Of a stretch of 37,918 nt of DNA, positions 296 to 15,604 are shown piece after piece. Source of the stretch: Gemmatimonadaceae bacterium (lineage in GTDB: Bacteria > Gemmatimonadota > Gemmatimonadetes > Gemmatimonadales > Gemmatimonadaceae). Position numbers and translations under genes: made by a program. The number at the start of each line of letters is the position of its first letter. Position 1 is the stretch's first letter. The notes beneath the pieces are model-generated. The model searched no databases and had not been told where the DNA came from. It worked only from the letters and a program-made list of their open reading frames with translations. The stretch lies in assembly GCA_017881585.1 (NCBI GenBank), contig JADGQS010000015.1:1-37918 (forward strand), written 5' to 3'.

Positions 296-1567
296 TTCGT
301 GTCTGAGCGACTCCACCGGGTCCATTCTGGCAGCCCGCGCGGCGGGCATCATGCCGAAGAGAATTCCCGTGCCGGCCGCGGCGACGAGCGCAACGAGCAC
401 GGCTTCCGGCGGAATCGAGGCGGGGATCGGCGTGTAGATCTTCACGAGCCAGGACAGGACGGCGCCGATCACCAGTCCGATCGCGGCGCCGAGCGTCGTG
501 AGCGTCGCCGCCTCCACGAGGAACTGCCAGAGGATGATGGCCGATGTGGCGCCGAGCGCCTTGCGCACGCCGATCTCGCGAGTGCGCTCGGTGACGGAGA
601 TCATCATGATCGCGACCACGCCGACGCCGCCGACGAGCAGGCCCACACCGGAGAGGGTGATGCCCACGAGGAAGATCGCACCGAAGAACTGGTTGAAGAT
701 GTCCATGATGCGGTCTTCGCCAACCAGGTAAAACGAGTTGTTCGCACCCGGCTTGATGCCGCGCCGGCTGCGCAGCAACGCCGTGACGGCGTCCATCGCG
801 TCGTCGCGCGTGACCGACGGCTGCGGCATCACCGCGACGCTGATGCCGCGCTTGTATACGCTGAGGTGCCGCCACGCCGTCATCATCGGGATGATCGCGC
901 GGGGGTTGTCCGGGCCGGTGCCGTTCAGCGTCTTGAGGAAGCCCGCCTTGGTGTGGAACACGCCGATCACGGTGAATGGCTTGCCCTCGAGCGTGATCTC
1001 CTTGCCGAGCGGATCGGAGTCGCCGAAGAGCTGCGACTTCAGCGTGTCGTTGACGATGATCAGCGGAGCCGCGCTCTGGTCCTCCGACTCGGTGAAACTG
1101 CGGCCCGGCGAGATGTCGGCGCGGTCGGTGCGGATCCAGTCGGATGTGTACGCGTCGAAGCCCACGGACTTCAGCTGATGATCGCGGTAGATCATCGTGC
1201 CCTGGTTTCCGATTCGCGCGACGGCGTACGCCACCTCCGGAAGGTTCTGGATGGCGTGCAGCTCGTCGAGCGAGACCGGGGGATTCTTCCGGTCGGGGCA
1301 GGGATCGTCCGGGCTGTTGCACTGATTGTTGCCCGGGTCGCGGCGGTTGATCTGGAACGTGGTCGCGCCGAACTCGTCGAGATCCTTCTGGAAGCTCTCG
1401 CGAATGCCGTGCACGGCGGCGGCCATCGTGACCACCACGAACACGCCGACGGCGACCCCGGAAATCGTGAGCGCGGCGCGCACTTTGTTGCCGCGGATCG
1501 CCTCGAAGGCGATGGTCACGCCCTCGAGCGCCATGGAGACCCGCGCGAAGAACTTCATGGCTGCCAC
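293..1567 (-). CDS. ABC transporter permease, MacB/FtsX family
   Basis: 424-aa ORF; N-terminal IRGNKVRAALTISGVAVGVFVVV, C-terminal TERTREIGVRKALGAT...FLVEA and PVESLRHE typical of MacB-type permeases. Confidence 0.93.
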   Translation of the reverse strand: MAAMKFFARVSMALEGVTIAFEAIRGNKVRAALTISGVAVGVFVVVTMAAAVHGIRESFQKDLDEFGATTFQINRRDPGNNQCNSPDDPCPDRKNPPVSLDELHAIQNLPEVAYAVARIGNQGTMIYRDHQLKSVGFDAYTSDWIRTDRADISPGRSFTESEDQSAAPLIIVNDTLKSQLFGDSDPLGKEITLEGKPFTVIGVFHTKAGFLKTLNGTGPDNPRAIIPMMTAWRHLSVYKRGISVAVMPQPSVTRDDAMDAVTALLRSRRGIKPGANNSFYLVGEDRIMDIFNQFFGAIFLVGITLSGVGLLVGGVGVVAIMMISVTERTREIGVRKALGATSAIILWQFLVEAATLTTLGAAIGLVIGAVLSWLVKIYTPIPASIPPEAVLVALVAAAGTGILFGMMPAARAARMDPVESLRHE

Positions 1568-7171: not shown

Positions 7172-7385
7172 CGGCGACGGGTGAGGGGCGACAAGACGGC
7201 GACGGGCGACGCGTGAGGGGCGACTTGGTGAAGAGCGATGTGTCAGGCGTGAGGAGAACATCTCCGCGCTCCTCACGCGTCGCCCTTCGCCAGATCGCCT
7301 CTCACCCGTCGCTCGTCGCCGTCTTGGCACCTCTCACCCGTCGCTCGTCGCCGTCTTGGCACCCTCACCCGTCGCCCGTCGCCGT
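7172..7385. repeat. Intergenic repeat region: two exact 32-bp tandem copies (7299-7330, 7331-7362) with degenerate flanking copies and inverted copies at 7172-7224
   Basis: ctctcacccgtcgctcgtcgccgtcttggcac occurs twice in tandem; gacgggtgaggggcgac...gacaagacggcgacgggcgacgcgtgaggggcgac upstream is its reverse-complement variant; 10-bp inverted repeat 7247-7256/7269-7278. Confidence 0.92.
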
Positions 7386-7406
7386 TTGTCGGGGTATTAT
7401 CCCATT

Positions 7407-10400
7407 GTGAACCCTCGTCCCGGCCTCTGGTGGACGGTGGCCGCGACGGCAACCGTGCTGAGCGCGGCCCTCTGGCTGCGAGCGCCCGCGACCGGAACGT
7501 TGATCGCATGCGGGCTGACCACGGCGCTGAGCGTCGCGCTCACCCTGGGCGGCGACCGGGCGTGGAATCGCATCGGATTCGCCGTGTCGGCGGCGGCGTT
7601 CGTCGTGCTCGTCGCGATGACGGAGCGCTCGCGTGCCTCGTTCGCCGCGAATCCAAACGCGGCCCGCACCGCAGTCGCCGCACGTGGCACGGCCGCGATG
7701 GCCGCGGCGCTCGAGGTGGAAACCGCCGCGCTCCAGCGGCTGGCGGTCCAGGCGCTCGATGCGCACGCCGACCCGCGGCGCGCGTTCGCCGACCTCGACA
7801 GGCTGCGCGGATCGTCGGAATCGCGCTCGGTCGTGCTGATCCGCGGCGGTGCGCCGTTCGCGTGGTCGGGACGGCTCATGACACCGCTCGATTCCCTCGC
7901 GGGGCCGGTCGGCGCCTGGTCGACGCCGTTCTACCTCGCGCTCTATGCGATTGCCGGACGCGGCAGCGACCGCGCCGTCGCCGAGGTGCTCGTGCACGCC
8001 GATCGTCCCGGCGACGTGCTTGCTTCCGCCTTCGACGAACCGCTGACTCTCGCGTACGGGGTACAGCGATTCGGCTACGGGTCTGCAGCGGACGCCGACC
8101 GCGACACGCTGACGGTCGTGCGCGCCGCCGGAGTGCCGGTGATGGGCGTTCGAGCGGTTGCGCCCGCCGGAGAGCTGCTGGCCGATGCCGCCCGCGAGCG
8201 GGGCCGGACGCGCGGCGGCATTGCCCTTGCGATCGCCGCGCTCTTCTTCCTCGCGGCGACGTGGCGCCATCGGGACGGCGTCACGCGCCGGCTCGCCGCG
8301 CTCGCGGTGGCGCTGGCGGTCGTGGCGCTCGTGCCCCTCGCGCGATTCTCGAACGCGTCGTCGCTGTTCGATCCGACCTACTTCTACGTGGCCAACGGCG
8401 GCCCGTTCACGGGCAGCGTTGGAGCGCTCGCGCTCACCTGCTCGCTCGTGCTGCTCGGCATGCTCGCCGCGCTGCGCGCGCGCGTCGGCACGCGGTCGCG
8501 TGCGCAGGCGATTGTCGCAGTCGCTATCATCGCGGGCGTCGGCCCGTTCCTGCTCCGCGATCTCGCGCGCGGCATCCAGTTCCCGGAAGCCGGTGTGTCG
8601 ACCGCCATGTGGCTCGCATGGGAATCGACGCTCTTTCTCGCGTCGGTCTCGGTGCTGATGGCGGGCGCCACCGCGGGGCAGGCCGCGCTCGGCGAGCGCA
8701 AGGGGATTCCGCTCTGGATCGCGCCCGGCGTCGCCGCGGCGGCATCGCTGCTCGCTCCCGCACTCATGGACGCGCCGGGCGGGTATCCGCCGTGGTATCC
8801 CGCGCTCTGGGTGGTGGCGATCGGCGCGCTCGCGTTCGCCCGGCGCGCGCGCGGATCGGTCCTTCCCGTGGCGATCGTCGCGGCGTGCGGCGCCGTGACG
8901 CTTGTGTGGGGACAGTCGGTGCACTCGCGCGTGCTGCTCGCCGAACACGACGTGGCGAGCCTCAACATGCTCGACAGTTCCGCGGCAACGCTCCTGAAGC
9001 GCTTCACCGCGCAGCTCGACGTCGCGCACGCCCCCGCGAGTCGCTCGGAGCTGCTCGCGCGGTTCGCCGAGTCGGATCTCGCGAGCGGCGACTATCCGGT
9101 CGAGCTCACGAGCTGGAGTCCGTTGGGTGCGCCGATGGCGAATCTGCTCGTCGGGAAGACCGAGAAGACGGCCGGAATCGAATACTTCGCGCGGCAGGCG
9201 GCGGATTCCACGCATGCGATCTTCAGCAAGGTGCCTGGGACGCCGGGATTGCACCTCGTGCTGTCGGTGCCGCATGAGGACCGGTCGGTGACGACCGTCG
9301 TGGTGGCGCCGCGCACGCGGCTCCTCGCCCGCGACCCGTTCGGGGCGCTCATGGGATTGGGCTCGACGCCGACCACCGATCCGCCGTATACGCTGACGCC
9401 GGGTGGCATCCGGCACAACGCGCTCATCACGAACGAAGCGCAGTGGGAACGGCACGGCGACGAGCTGCACGGTGACTGGTTCCTGCCCGACACCAAGGGC
9501 GGGTTCTACAACGTGCACGCCGGCGTGCAACTGCGGAGCTTCAACCAGCTGATCATGCGCGGATCGCTGGTGGTGATCCTCGATCTCTTCGCGCTCTTCT
9601 CGCTCTGGTTGCTGCTCGTGATCGCCGACGGCGCGTTCGGCCGCTGGCTGCGCATGCAGCGCCGCCGCTGGCTGCGCAGCTACCGCACGCAGCTCACGCT
9701 CGCGCTCTTCGCGTTCTTCGTGATCCCCGCGGGCGCGTTCGCGGCCTGGAGTTACCAGCGCCTGCGGAGCGACGACGACCAGGCGCGCGATCTCCTCGTG
9801 CGCGAGACGCTGCGCGGCGTGGCGGTCTACACCGACAGTGCCAAGCTCTCGGACATCGCCGCGAAATTCCAAACGCCGCTCTTCCTCTATGCCGACGGCA
9901 TCCTGCTGGCCTCGAGCGACACGGTCCTCGACGCGCTCGCGCCGCTCGGCCGTCTCCTGCCGCGGTCCACCGCGCTCGCGCTCGAGGAGCGCGACGACAT
10001 CACGGCCAGCAGCGAGGAGCTGGTTGGTTCCGAGCCGATGCTGTTCGGATTCCGCGCGGCCAGCGCCGACGCATCCCCCGTGCGATTCGTCCTCGCCGCG
10101 CCGGCGCGCACGGACGATCTCGCGCTCGACCAGCGACGGCGCGACCTCGGCATCCTGGTGCTTTTCGCGGCGGCGCTCGGCGCGCTCGCGGCGCTCTGGC
10201 TTTCCGGACTCGCCGCCCGCCAGTTCTCGCGGCCGATTCGCACGCTGCAGGAGGGTGCGCTGGCGCTCGCCGCCGGCGAGCGGGAGCCGCGGCTCTCGAG
10301 CGATCCGCCGGTGGAATTCCAGCCGGTGTTCACCGCCTTCCGGCAGATGGCGCACGACATCGAGGCCGGGCGCGAGCAGGAAGCGCACGCGCAGCGCGTG

Positions 10401-11066
10401 CTCGCCTGGGGCGAGATGGCGCGGCAGGTCGCGCACGAAATCAAGAACCCGCTCACGCCGATGCGGCTCGGCATGCAGCACCTGCGCCGCGCGCGCCACG
10501 ACCCGAACGTGGACTTCGACCTGGTGCTCGAGGAGAACGTCTCACGCGTGCTTTCCGAGATCGACCGGCTCGACGAGATCGCGCGTGCGTTCAGCCGCTA
10601 CGGCACCGCGCCGGATGACCGTGCCGCGGCGGTGCCGGTGGACGTCGCCCAGGTGCTGAACGATGTCATGCGCCTCGAACAGCTCGGCGGCGAGGAAGTG
10701 CGCTGGCACGCCGAGGGAGCCGGGTCGCCTGTGCTGGTGCTGGCGGGCCGGACGGAACTTCGCGAGGTGCTGCTCAACCTGCTGGAAAACGCCCGCCTCG
10801 CGAACGCCCGTAACGTACACGTCACGCTGTCGGCGGCCGGTGAGACGGTCCAGGTCTCGGTGCGCGACGACGGACACGGGATCGCCGGCGACGTCATGCC
10901 CCGGATCTTCGAGCCGCACTTCTCCACGCGGACCAGCGGCAGCGGGCTCGGACTCGCCATCAGCCGGCGCATGATCGAGGGGTGGGGAGGCACGATCAGC
11001 ATCGAGAGCGCTCCAGCCGAAGGCACGACCGTCCGCATCGCACTGGTTCCGGCGCCCGCCATCTGA
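7407..11066 (+). CDS. Large NtrY-like membrane sensor histidine kinase
   Basis: ORF 7356..11066; probable GTG start at 7407, because the upstream ATG lies in the repeat. Many TM segments, HAMP-like region, H-box RQVAHEIKNPLTPMRLGMQHL, N-box LLNLLENARLANA, G-boxes DDGHGI and GSGLGLAISRRMI. Confidence 0.93.
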   Translation: MNPRPGLWWTVAATATVLSAALWLRAPATGTLIACGLTTALSVALTLGGDRAWNRIGFAVSAAAFVVLVAMTERSRASFAANPNAARTAVAARGTAAMAAALEVETAALQRLAVQALDAHADPRRAFADLDRLRGSSESRSVVLIRGGAPFAWSGRLMTPLDSLAGPVGAWSTPFYLALYAIAGRGSDRAVAEVLVHADRPGDVLASAFDEPLTLAYGVQRFGYGSAADADRDTLTVVRAAGVPVMGVRAVAPAGELLADAARERGRTRGGIALAIAALFFLAATWRHRDGVTRRLAALAVALAVVALVPLARFSNASSLFDPTYFYVANGGPFTGSVGALALTCSLVLLGMLAALRARVGTRSRAQAIVAVAIIAGVGPFLLRDLARGIQFPEAGVSTAMWLAWESTLFLASVSVLMAGATAGQAALGERKGIPLWIAPGVAAAASLLAPALMDAPGGYPPWYPALWVVAIGALAFARRARGSVLPVAIVAACGAVTLVWGQSVHSRVLLAEHDVASLNMLDSSAATLLKRFTAQLDVAHAPASRSELLARFAESDLASGDYPVELTSWSPLGAPMANLLVGKTEKTAGIEYFARQAADSTHAIFSKVPGTPGLHLVLSVPHEDRSVTTVVVAPRTRLLARDPFGALMGLGSTPTTDPPYTLTPGGIRHNALITNEAQWERHGDELHGDWFLPDTKGGFYNVHAGVQLRSFNQLIMRGSLVVILDLFALFSLWLLLVIADGAFGRWLRMQRRRWLRSYRTQLTLALFAFFVIPAGAFAAWSYQRLRSDDDQARDLLVRETLRGVAVYTDSAKLSDIAAKFQTPLFLYADGILLASSDTVLDALAPLGRLLPRSTALALEERDDITASSEELVGSEPMLFGFRAASADASPVRFVLAAPARTDDLALDQRRRDLGILVLFAAALGALAALWLSGLAARQFSRPIRTLQEGALALAAGEREPRLSSDPPVEFQPVFTAFRQMAHDIEAGREQEAHAQRVLAWGEMARQVAHEIKNPLTPMRLGMQHLRRARHDPNVDFDLVLEENVSRVLSEIDRLDEIARAFSRYGTAPDDRAAAVPVDVAQVLNDVMRLEQLGGEEVRWHAEGAGSPVLVLAGRTELREVLLNLLENARLANARNVHVTLSAAGETVQVSVRDDGHGIAGDVMPRIFEPHFSTRTSGSGLGLAISRRMIEGWGGTISIESAPAEGTTVRIALVPAPAI

Positions 11067-11081: not shown

Positions 11082-14000
11082 ATGCCGAGCGCCGAAACCA
11101 TTCCAGTCAGACGCACCACCGGGATTCCGCCGCACCTCGACGGATGGCAGCTCCCGCCCGGCTGGATCTGGGGCGATCAGGGCTACTACGCCAACCACCG
11201 GCACGCGCAGGAGATCATCGACGCGCTCGGCCGCTCGCTCGCGCTCGTCACGGTGCCGGATCCCGCGCACGCGACCTGGCTGTTCGACGAGGCGCGTTCG
11301 CTCGCGCACCGCAACCATCCGGCGATTCCCACGACGTATCACTTCTGGACGCAGAGCGCCGGGTCGCGCCGCGGGCCGGGATACCTCCGGAGATGGATCG
11401 TCGGCGAAACGGTTGGTGCGCGCATCCGCCGGCTCGGCATCGAGACGATCCCGTACATGCTGCGCGTGCTGCGCGCGGCGGGTTCGGCCGTCGCCTACCT
11501 GCACGACGCCGGCCAGACGCACGGCGCGCTTTCGCCCGACACGATCTACGTGACACCCACCGGCCGCGTATGGATTCTCGGGTGGCAGTGGGCGCTGCCG
11601 TCGTCGGAAATTCCGCCGGGTGTCCGGCCGGACCCGCTCTTCACGCCGCCTCCACGCGAGTGGGCGGCAGGCGAGTGGCGTCCGACGCCGGCGAGCGATC
11701 AGTGGCAGCTCGCCGCGAGCTGCTTCGCGATCCTCACGGGTGAACTGCCGCCGCGCGACGAGATCCCGCCGCTCCGCTGGGTGCGCCCCGATTGCCCGGC
11801 GAACGTCGCCGAGCTGCTCGACCGTGCGCTGGCCGCGAACCCGGACGACCGCTTTCACTCGGTTGCGTCGCTGCTGCGCGCGGTTGAAAAGATTTCGGGA
11901 TCCGGAACGCCCGCCCTCTCCGGCGTGGACATCGCGTCGGGTGAATACAAGGCGGTGAGCGAGGAGGACCGCCTGCGCTGGGCCACCGGCGACGACTTCG
12001 AGGTGCTGTCGTCGCTCGGGTCCGGCACGTTCGGAACGGTCTGGCGCGTGCGCGATCTCTCGCTGCAGCGCGAAGTGGCGATGAAGGTGCTGCATCCATC
12101 GGTGGCGAAGAGCGACGCCGCGGTCGCACGGTTCCGTCGCGAGGCGCAGATGGCCGCACGGCTGCAGCACCCGGCGATCGTCCCCATATACGATTGGGAC
12201 TCCAAAGGAGATGTGCACTGGTACGTGATGGAGCTCGAGGACGAGGGCTCCGTGGCGGATCTCGTGCGGCGCATGGGTCCGCGGCCGCTCGCGGAAGTCG
12301 CGCCGCAGATCGACCTCATTCTCGACGGTCTCCACGCCGCGCACGAGAACGGGATCATTCATCGCGACCTGAAGCCGGAGAACTTGTTGATCGACCGCTA
12401 TCGCCGCTGGCGCATCGCGGACTTCGGCATCGCGAACGCGATGGGCGAGGAGTGGGCGGGGTCGAGCGGCACGCCGGCGTTCGCGCCGCCGGAACAGCTG
12501 CTCGGCGAACCGCAGGGAGTCGCGGCAGACCTGTTCGCGGTGGCGGCGATCGTCTACTTCGCGCTGACCGGCGCGGCGCCGTTCGTGGGCGAGGACGGGC
12601 GCGCGATCCTGGCGCAGCAGCTCGCGGGCAGCGCGGACCTCTCACGCTTCCATCCCGAGCTCGCGAGCTGGCTGCGCAAAGGGCTCGCGGCGGATCCCGA
12701 CCAGCGATTCGTGGACGCCTCGGAAATGCAGGCGGAGTGGCGCCGGGTCACGCGTGAAGTGCTGAAGCACGAGTCGCGGCTGCCGTGGAGTGCGCGCGTC
12801 GCACAGGCGATCAGGAACGGATTCGGCGGAGCGGCGGGCGCGATCCTCGTGGCGGCGGCGCTCGCGGCGCCGCTCGGGACGTCGGCGCACGCGCAGGCAC
12901 CATCGGGATCCGCGCGCGCCGACTCCGTGCGCGCGGCGCAGCGCGATTCCGTTCGCGCGCAGCGCGATTCCACGGCCCAGGCTCTCTCCCGCGTGCACGT
13001 GTCGGTGACGCGCACCGATCAAACGGCGCAGCGGGCACCCTGGGCCGTGGGAATGCAGGACAAGTCGGACATCCAGGCGGGGCAGGCGACGCTCGGCATC
13101 GACGAGGCGCTCAACAACATTCCCGGCGTGTACGTCGACAACCGCTACAACTACTCGCTCGACCAGCGCCTCTCGATTCGCGGCGCGGGTTCGCGCGCGA
13201 ACTTCGGCATTCGCGGCGTGAAGGTCCTGATCGACGGCGTTCCGCAGTCGCTCCCCGACGGGCAGAACCAGCTGAACAACCTGGAGCTTGGCGACGTCTC
13301 GCGCGTGGAGGTGCTGCGCGGTTCCGCGTCGTCGCTCTACGGAAACGGCTCGGGCGGCGTGATCTCCTTCACCACGGACATGTCGGCGCCGGATCCGCTC
13401 GACCAGACGCTGCGCATCGAGAGCGGATCGTTCGGCACCACGAAGTGGCAGTCGCGCACGTCGGGCCGCGATGGCTCGCTCGTGGGCTCGCTCTCGGCGT
13501 CACGCACGACCGTGGACGGGTTCCGCCAATTCAGCAACGCCGACCTCAAACAGCTCAACGGCGCGCTCGACTACGGGTTCACGCCGGGCACGTCGCTTTC
13601 GCTTCGCGCGTTCGCGACGGAGATGCCGACCGCGCTCAACCCCGGCGCGCTCACCGCCGCCGAGTACGCGGCGAACCGCGATTCGGCATCGGCGACGAAC
13701 ATCAGGCGCGACGCGAGCAAGGCGATCTCGCAGAATCAGTTCTCGGCGCGGCTGCAGCACAGCGCGGGCGACGGCGGCAGCTACTCGGCGACGGCGTACG
13801 TGGTGCGGCGCTTCGTCGACAACCCGCTCGCGACGTCGCCGCCGGGCACGGCGGGCGCGACCGTCGGGACGTATTCGACGCTCAATCGCTGGGTGACGGG
13901 CGCGCGGATCGATGCGTCGCATCCGCTGTGCGCGTGCGAGAACGCGCCGCGCCTGGCGACGGGGATCGACATCGAGCGGTCGCTGGACATCCGCCGCAAC

Positions 14001-15008
14001 TCCCGCGCGACCGGCGGGCACCCGAACGCCGCAACCGACACGCTCTATTTGAACCAGAGTGAAAGTGTGGGGTCGGTTGGTCCCTTCGCCGATATCGAAT
14101 GGTCGCCCGTGGCGAAGCTTTCGCTCAGCGCCGGCGCCCGCTGGGACCGGACCACGTTCACGGTGCAGGATCACTTCTTCGGCGACCACCTCGACAACAG
14201 CGGTTCGCGCGCGATGACCGCGACCACAGGGCACGTGGGCGCGTCGTACGTGGTGTCGGACGCGTTCACGCCGTACGCGAGCTGGTCCACCGCGTTCGAA
14301 ACGCCGACGACGACCGAGCTCGACGTGAAGCCGGACGGCACCGGCGGGTTCAACCCGGATCTCGGACCGGCGCAGATCCGCACCATCGAGGCCGGCGCGC
14401 GCGGGAGCCTCGGCGCGGACGTGACATACACCGTGAGCATGTTCCGGCTGATCGAGGACAACGCGATCATCCAGTACCTGCAGTCCGGCTCGTCCGCGTA
14501 CTACCGGAACGCAGGACGGATACGCAACGACGGCCTGGAATTCGGACTCGCAGCGCGCGTGGCGAACTGGGCGAATCTCAACCTCGCCTGGACGGAGGCG
14601 AAGTACCGGTTCGTGCGTTACATATTTCCGGTCGGCGCCGTGATGGACACGCTGAACGGCAAGAAACTCTCTGGGGTTCCGGATCATTTCGTGCGATTCG
14701 GACTTCGAACGCACTGGAATCGCTGGACCCTGGATGCCGACGAAACGTGGAGTTCTTCGATGTACGCCGACGACCAGAACACGCAGCTCATCTCGAGCTG
14801 GGGAAACGGCGACCTCAACGTGCGCGCGACGTGGACCGCGGAGGCCGGCAGCGTCCGCCTGCAGCCGTACGCCGCCGTCAACAACCTGCTGAACCAGGCT
14901 TATATCGGATCGGTGACGATCAACGGAGCGGCCGGACGGACGATCGAGCCGGCTCCGCTTCGCAACTATTACTTCGGGATGGAGATCGGATGGCGCGCAG
15001 TAAAGTGA
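11082..15008 (+). CDS. Pseudokinase + Ser/Thr protein kinase + signal-peptide-like segment + TonB-dependent receptor in one ORF
   Basis: 1308-aa uninterrupted ORF. Kinase 1 is degenerate (HGALSPDT, no DFG). Kinase 2 has GSGTFGTVW, VAMKVL, HRDLKPENLL (12360-), DFG (12420-). Then GAILVAAALAAPLGTSAHAQ, then TonB plug (IDEALNNIPGVYVDNRYNYSLDQRLSIRGAG...GSASSLYGNGSGGVISF) and a barrel ending NYYFGMEIGWRAVK. Confidence 0.93.
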   Translation: MPSAETIPVRRTTGIPPHLDGWQLPPGWIWGDQGYYANHRHAQEIIDALGRSLALVTVPDPAHATWLFDEARSLAHRNHPAIPTTYHFWTQSAGSRRGPGYLRRWIVGETVGARIRRLGIETIPYMLRVLRAAGSAVAYLHDAGQTHGALSPDTIYVTPTGRVWILGWQWALPSSEIPPGVRPDPLFTPPPREWAAGEWRPTPASDQWQLAASCFAILTGELPPRDEIPPLRWVRPDCPANVAELLDRALAANPDDRFHSVASLLRAVEKISGSGTPALSGVDIASGEYKAVSEEDRLRWATGDDFEVLSSLGSGTFGTVWRVRDLSLQREVAMKVLHPSVAKSDAAVARFRREAQMAARLQHPAIVPIYDWDSKGDVHWYVMELEDEGSVADLVRRMGPRPLAEVAPQIDLILDGLHAAHENGIIHRDLKPENLLIDRYRRWRIADFGIANAMGEEWAGSSGTPAFAPPEQLLGEPQGVAADLFAVAAIVYFALTGAAPFVGEDGRAILAQQLAGSADLSRFHPELASWLRKGLAADPDQRFVDASEMQAEWRRVTREVLKHESRLPWSARVAQAIRNGFGGAAGAILVAAALAAPLGTSAHAQAPSGSARADSVRAAQRDSVRAQRDSTAQALSRVHVSVTRTDQTAQRAPWAVGMQDKSDIQAGQATLGIDEALNNIPGVYVDNRYNYSLDQRLSIRGAGSRANFGIRGVKVLIDGVPQSLPDGQNQLNNLELGDVSRVEVLRGSASSLYGNGSGGVISFTTDMSAPDPLDQTLRIESGSFGTTKWQSRTSGRDGSLVGSLSASRTTVDGFRQFSNADLKQLNGALDYGFTPGTSLSLRAFATEMPTALNPGALTAAEYAANRDSASATNIRRDASKAISQNQFSARLQHSAGDGGSYSATAYVVRRFVDNPLATSPPGTAGATVGTYSTLNRWVTGARIDASHPLCACENAPRLATGIDIERSLDIRRNSRATGGHPNAATDTLYLNQSESVGSVGPFADIEWSPVAKLSLSAGARWDRTTFTVQDHFFGDHLDNSGSRAMTATTGHVGASYVVSDAFTPYASWSTAFETPTTTELDVKPDGTGGFNPDLGPAQIRTIEAGARGSLGADVTYTVSMFRLIEDNAIIQYLQSGSSAYYRNAGRIRNDGLEFGLAARVANWANLNLAWTEAKYRFVRYIFPVGAVMDTLNGKKLSGVPDHFVRFGLRTHWNRWTLDADETWSSSMYADDQNTQLISSWGNGDLNVRATWTAEAGSVRLQPYAAVNNLLNQAYIGSVTINGAAGRTIEPAPLRNYYFGMEIGWRAVK

Positions 15009-15604
15009 AGACGAAGGCGAAAGCTCGGGCGAATGGGAAGGCCGATGTGAATGGGAAGGCCGATGTGAAGTCGATCCTGCCGTTCGCCGTTCGCGGGTCG
15101 AAGATCGCGGGGCGGGGCGCATTCGCGGTGCGCCCCATAGCCAAGGGCGAGCGGATCGTGGAGTACCTCGGTGAGCGCGTTTCGCACGCCGTGGCCGACG
15201 CGCGTTACGATGATCACAAGGGAGGGCTGCACCACACCTTCCTGTTCACCGTGAGCCGAAAGGTGGTGATCGACGCGACCGTCAACGGGAATGAGGCGCG
15301 CTTCATCAATCACTCGTGCGATCCGAACTGCGAGTCGGTCATCGAGGGCGGGCGCGTGTTCATCGACGCGGCCAAGCCGATCAAGACCGGCACCGAACTC
15401 ACGTACGACTACGCATACACTCGAGACGGATCGGAGACGGAGGAGGACGAGACCGGCCTTTACGGGTGTCGCTGCGGGGCCAAGAGCTGCCGCGGGACGA
15501 TTCTCGCTCCGCTCTCACAGGCTGAAGTGCGTCGGCGCGCCGCCGCGGCGAAGCGGCGGCACCACCGGGCGCACGTGCACGCGCGCACCGGGCAGGAAGA
15601 CTAG
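14990..15604 (+). CDS. SET-domain protein (putative lysine methyltransferase) with Lys/Ala-rich N-terminus
   Basis: Within ORF 14099..15604, ATG at 14990 gives MARSKVKTKAKARANGKADVNGKADVKSILPFAVRGSKIAGRGAFAV...; SET motifs GRGAF, FINHSCDPNC, ELTYDYAY and post-SET-like CRCGAKSCRG. Overlaps the receptor ORF by 19 nt. Confidence 0.92.
   Translation: MARSKVKTKAKARANGKADVNGKADVKSILPFAVRGSKIAGRGAFAVRPIAKGERIVEYLGERVSHAVADARYDDHKGGLHHTFLFTVSRKVVIDATVNGNEARFINHSCDPNCESVIEGGRVFIDAAKPIKTGTELTYDYAYTRDGSETEEDETGLYGCRCGAKSCRGTILAPLSQAEVRRRAAAAKRRHHRAHVHARTGQED

Follow-up and report, generated by a model that had tools for sequence, protein, structure and literature searches.

Here we report that a single open reading frame (ORF) in a 37,918-nucleotide stretch of Gemmatimonadaceae DNA (the window: GenBank assembly GCA_017881585.1, contig JADGQS010000015.1, positions 1 to 37,918, forward strand) joins a Ser/Thr protein kinase to a complete TonB-dependent receptor. 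The frame opens with an ATG at 11082, closes with a TGA at 15006-15008 and runs through 1308 codons with zero internal stops. Pfam recovers along it the domains expected by the original prediction, which had been made from the letters of the sequence: Pkinase at residues 306-544 (6.3e-44), Plug at 651-759 (2.4e-18) and TonB barrel at 845-1269 (5e-36). The features of the frame are as follows.

11082-15008, + strand: fused ORF of 1308 residues, in the order pseudokinase, Hanks-type kinase, internal signal peptide, linker, PqqU-like TonB-dependent receptor
11157-11906, + strand: N-terminal pseudokinase domain, about residues 26-275 (hhalign; modelled strands and helices follow a kinase-like order)
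11997-12713, + strand: Ser/Thr kinase domain, residues 306-544 (Pfam PF00069, 6.3e-44)
12780-12827, + strand: basic amphipathic helix at the C-terminus of the kinase, LPWSARVAQAIRNGFG, matching the C-terminal tails of split kinases
12831-12893, + strand: predicted internal signal peptide, core AAGAILVAAALAAPL (residues 584-598) and AHA motif (motif rule)
12894-13031, + strand: variable linker rich in Ala, Asp, Ser and Arg (DSVRAQRDS type), with the TonB-box-like VHVSVTR ahead of the plug
13032-13358, + strand: TonB plug domain (PF07715), with F708 (13203) at the position of PqqU Y99 and Q730 at that of Q121 (alignment to 6v81/9c4o)
13614-15005, + strand: PqqU-like TonB-dependent beta barrel, with K880, R910 and R971 at the positions of PqqU K274, R304 and R365

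Homologues with the same domain order, which the original prediction had proposed to seek, exist in related genomes. Among 179 genomes of the family the fusion was found in five: the genome of the window (G000), three others of its genus in which the frame is likewise uninterrupted (G011, 96% identical; G002, 90%; G014, 87%), and G161, from another genus of the same family (59% identity). No additional fusions were found in a wider set of 288 genomes of the order. In G011 short runs of N fall within the gene, and the frame can be followed in full only from residue 58-59 onward; its junction is complete. The hosts of the fusion are some soil and lake Gemmatimonadota. Between fused genomes, the ratio of nonsynonymous to synonymous change (dN/dS, from nucleotide comparison) is 0.04-0.07 for the kinase part and 0.09-0.15 for the receptor part, no looser than in pairs encoded as separate genes (0.03-0.12 and 0.09-0.20, respectively), and both halves are under purifying selection. 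The more distant fused species differ by a synonymous divergence (dS) of ~0.8-0.9, so the fusion is not very recent, as one reading in the original prediction would have had it. No second strong copy of either half was found in the assembled genome (~90% complete). By sequence comparison, the fused frame is a real and conserved gene fusion, far beyond what chance would produce.

The anatomy of the junction is consistent with an export signal lying exactly at the seam. Split kinases, that is, those encoded apart from the receptor, end in a basic amphipathic helix (e.g., VPLGRRMVNSIERFFG or VPFGTRVTRAFQTLMG), of which LPWSARVAQAIRNGFG is the equivalent in the fusion; this helix appears to be the former C-terminus of the kinase, now standing as the n-region ahead of the signal. 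We scanned for signal peptides with a simple, home-made rule (a basic residue, an uncharged hydrophobic core and AxA), and in each of the four fusions of the first genus (G000, G011, G002 and G014) the junction was the sole signal-peptide-like site in the whole protein. The predicted cut falls after A604 (AHA-QA), between 12893 and 12894. All five fusions retain the hydrophobic core and four retain AxA-Q, and length differences in the following linker among the four same-genus genomes are all of whole codons. Split receptors carry the same type of linker. Since the fusions keep the conserved C-terminal helix of the kinase but no receptor start or n-region, a deletion would have taken the last residues and stop of the kinase together with the start and n-region of the receptor.

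The original prediction had called a polypeptide holding both halves topologically paradoxical, and its account did not include the junction signal peptide. Sec routinely handles proteins of N-in/C-out topology that carry their signal sequence internally. The architecture is indeed unusual, but the paradox was overstated and is probably largely resolved by the signal peptide predicted at the seam.

In most relatives the kinase and the receptor have a gene each. The two often share an orientation and lie 0.9-5.5 kb from one another, and the genes between them include ones for an aldehyde dehydrogenase, a GNAT acetyltransferase, an amidohydrolase and a beta-lactamase-fold protein. Split genes in sister genomes had been named beforehand as an observation that would overturn the fusion; many relatives do have them, but they mark the ancestral state, and the fusion stands. 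Other arrangements are closer. The two genes are adjacent in G165 and G139; in G162 and G167 (L082, L083), genomes of only 1.8-2.1 Mb, the stop of the kinase and the start of the receptor share a TGATG, which suggests translational coupling as a step preceding fusion; and in G174 (L080, 5700-5800) kinase and receptor share one frame interrupted by a single TAG, readthrough of which would yield the fused protein. Arrangements kilobases apart, adjacent with TGATG and one TAG apart can be viewed as intermediate states toward fusion. In G007, as in G012, kinase and receptor are found on different contigs, and in G012 the kinase gene is truncated by the end of its contig. Apparent long frames to which both the kinase and the receptor hit belong, in G015 (1547 residues) and G001 (2160 residues), were considered as further fusions and rejected, as their kinases end at stops of their own. 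The kinase tree and the receptor tree each require two origins of the fusion, and the fusions of the first genus form one fully supported clade. Taken together, the trees and the gene arrangements indicate that fusion arose at least twice, probably by deletion between neighbouring co-oriented genes.

Within the kinase half, the original prediction of two kinase domains holds for the second and has to be amended for the first. Residues 1-292 and 296-560 of the kinase alignment match each other with an hhalign probability of 98-98.7%, and a model of the N-terminal domain (medium confidence) places strands and helices in kinase-like order; Pfam finds no kinase in the N-terminal 290 residues. The VAIK lysine is missing, HGALSPD replaces HRDLKPEN and LGWQW replaces DFG. 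Because the catalytic Lys, the HRD aspartate and DFG are all absent despite the profile alignment to the second domain, the first domain is a degenerate pseudokinase. The second domain carries a Gly-rich loop, VAxK, HRDLKPEN, DFG and an APE-type motif, the complete core set that had been described for it; K335, D429 of HRD and D447 of DFG are invariant among 34 homologues, and its best Foldseek match is PknB of Mycobacterium tuberculosis. The tandem of a pseudokinase ahead of an active-type kinase is conserved throughout the Gemmatimonadaceae. NCBIfam gives this kinase family sub-cut-off matches to the defence kinases MAD6 and BREX PglW.

The receptor half is complete, as first described, with both Plug and barrel present. 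Its best sequence relatives in the PDB are YncD/PqqU (1.8e-77), and its predicted structure (predicted local distance difference test, pLDDT, 75; predicted template modelling score, pTM, 0.77) best matches PqqU of Escherichia coli, with a template modelling (TM) score of 0.90-0.91 by target length. PqqU is reported to be widespread in Gemmatimonadetes, and published criteria for it are an aromatic residue at position 99 (Y/F/W), R304 and R365 (PMC12124388); the corresponding F708, R910 and R971 are invariant in all 29 aligned receptors, fused and split. Since the score against the NCBIfam equivalog NF041535 falls below the cut-off (312.6 vs 1200 bits), we label the receptor PqqU-like and a probable importer of the vitamin-like cofactor pyrroloquinoline quinone (PQQ), not an equivalog; it is a PqqU relative that probably imports PQQ or a similar ligand. 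For PQQ enzymes, the genome gives weak PQQ-repeat matches only; PqqE was below cut-off in the genome, as it was in every control genome.

Based on these observations, we consider it probable that the ORF encodes a polyprotein cut at its internal signal, so that a cytoplasmic kinase anchored by its tail and a receptor of the outer membrane are synthesised 1:1. The ribosome would make the joined chain, the kinase part of which would fold in the cytoplasm. With the old basic kinase helix as its n-region, the internal signal sequence would then target the chain to SecYEG in an N-in orientation; the receptor part would cross the membrane, and signal peptidase I would cleave after AxA. The receptor would fold into the outer membrane by the usual chaperone and beta-barrel assembly machinery (BAM) route and import PQQ or a similar ligand, and the signal peptide would stay on the kinase and anchor its C-terminus in the membrane. 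We infer this targeting, cleavage and anchoring from a junction that is itself plainly conserved; of the readings in the original prediction, that of a real fusion processed after translation is the best supported. The 1:1 output is expected because no stop separates the halves: any ribosome that translates the kinase goes on to translate the receptor.

Several points weigh against this scheme. The cleavage site was called with our own motif rule, and in G161, where the equivalent hydrophobic core is LVGLGAVALTTPLLAQ, the strict AxA rule failed (PLLA-Q). A folded N-terminal domain of 570 residues may slow Sec targeting. In all three fused receptors of the first genus that were scored, the semi-conserved PQQ ligand R536 is a Ser (S1138, 14493-14495), where all 26 other aligned receptors, the independently fused G161 included, have Arg. 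Lastly, two potential start codons, ATG (M549) and GTG (V560), lie in frame upstream of the signal in all four fusions of the first genus and could initiate some of the receptor.

These start codons are the basis of an unlikely alternative, in which initiation within the kinase C-lobe makes most of the receptor and the joined chain mainly supplies kinase. The resulting n-regions of ~24-35 residues, rich in Arg and Lys, are long but usable, and Shine-Dalgarno motifs are rare at the candidate starts of split receptors too; we accordingly dropped the missing motif as an argument against internal initiation. M549, however, does not vary among the 34 kinases, of which some are split, as expected of a residue retained for the kinase, and its equivalent is the only in-frame ATG, GTG or TTG before the signal in G161. 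Nor does synonymous change dip over the region (0.85 in window 541-560 and 0.47 in window 561-580, against 0.57 overall). Above all, internal initiation offers no route to a free kinase: with no stop codon between the halves it only adds kinase-free receptor, so that a free kinase requires proteolysis, and the earlier suggestion that internal initiation alone gives two proteins from the frame fails on this point. A chain that stays uncleaved, with the signal segment spanning the inner membrane and ligand binding relayed directly to the kinase, would agree with a single polypeptide that has a hydrophobic segment between its cytoplasmic part and its periplasmic and outer-membrane part, but AxA-Q is preserved in four of the five fusions though its flanks drift, and the linker from segment to plug is only ~25-45 residues and variable in length. 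A linker of this size is marginal for bridging the periplasm, and we regard such a trans-envelope receptor-kinase as very improbable. Least credible of all, to the point of being rejected, is an assembly or sequencing artefact that deleted a stop or start between kinase and receptor, a possibility raised in the original prediction. Every named record found with the fusion is metagenome-assembled, but the same junction is present in the four separately assembled genomes of the first genus, whose public counterparts come from separate sampling projects (fen_1231, GL140, Umea3), and the independent fusion in G161 has a receptor frame without its own start codon near the signal, which a simple indel could not have created.

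A further alternative concerns why the genes fused and not how the product is handled, and it is compatible with the processed polyprotein: the in-frame deletion was tolerated since internal signal peptides work, and no functional coupling followed. We hold this to be about evenly balanced. The spacing of the two genes is variable in relatives (0 to 5.5 kb), the second fusion and three of the adjacent pairs sit in genomes of only 1.8-2.3 Mb, and just 5/179 family genomes are fused; against this, the same pair fused twice independently and was retained over the dS noted above, and direct adjacency of the pair recurs in several lineages. A tentative functional proposal, which we think rather doubtful, is that fusion fixes the 1:1 output and that export of the receptor both releases and membrane-anchors the kinase, which would report on receptor export or supply. 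The kinase may be functionally coupled to the receptor or the fusion may be a tolerated by-product of deletion, and both readings stand.

The genes on either side of the fused ORF are the following.

7356-11066, + strand: sensor histidine kinase (HAMP-HisKA-HATPase_c), about 1236 residues (Pfam; start codon uncertain)
14990-15604, + strand: SET-domain gene of the protein methyltransferase type (Pfam PF00856, 2.2e-24)

The histidine kinase gene ends 15 bases before the fused ORF, and the ATG of the SET-domain gene overlaps the receptor stop by 19 bases. So short a gap upstream, and a SET start that falls within the final codons of the receptor, make a four-part transcript likely, with the SET-domain gene on the same transcript as the fused ORF. 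In most related loci an ORF with a C-terminus of the histidine kinase's type lies directly upstream of the Ser/Thr kinase; the long N-terminal part of the histidine kinase is without a Pfam match. Several split relatives have a similar lysine-rich small ORF downstream of the receptor.

The fused ORF joins two known families; it is conserved, fixed in several species and evolved twice, and it probably encodes a bacterial polyprotein with an internal signal. Our search of the open-access literature found no published description of a kinase-TonB receptor architecture, in agreement with the original prediction, which knew of no described family of this kind, and no earlier description of an outer-membrane beta-barrel receptor as the C-terminal part of a cytoplasmic enzyme. 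If its processing is confirmed, Sec and BAM can handle an outer-membrane protein that is preceded in the chain by a large folded cytoplasmic domain, and the fusion points to a functional link of PQQ uptake with a Hanks kinase, one that is relevant to the split relatives too.

Each part of the protein has a recognizable counterpart. The kinase domain is 33-34% identical to PknB-type Hanks kinases and shares all their catalytic motifs; unlike PknB, it has a tandem pseudokinase in front and no PASTA sensor, and its C-terminal transmembrane segment would be a borrowed signal peptide leading into another protein. The receptor retains Q121, K274, R304 and R365 of PqqU (YncD; PDB 9c4o, 6v81), with F at the Y99 position, at ~29% identity; it differs in that Q84, N477 and R536 are replaced and in being preceded in frame by a cytoplasmic kinase. 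TonB-dependent transducers such as FecA and FpvA carry an N-terminal STN domain that is periplasmic and follows the signal peptide. The fused protein resembles them as a TonB receptor with an N-terminal signalling addition, but here the kinase precedes the signal peptide and would stay cytoplasmic. For the ORF as a whole, the closest precedent appears to be FbcH of Bradyrhizobium japonicum, a cytochrome b-c1 polyprotein, the product of one bacterial gene, which is reportedly cut into two proteins at an internal signal sequence. The features looked for in such a polyprotein are present in the fused ORF: a single stop-free frame for two proteins, conserved across species, and a signal core with a cleavage motif at the junction (by rule in G000, G011, G002 and G014, and core only in G161), with cleavage in our case predicted. 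The two systems differ in what is joined: FbcH links an inner-membrane protein to a periplasm-facing cytochrome that belongs to the same complex, whereas in the fusion an outer-membrane barrel comes after a soluble kinase.

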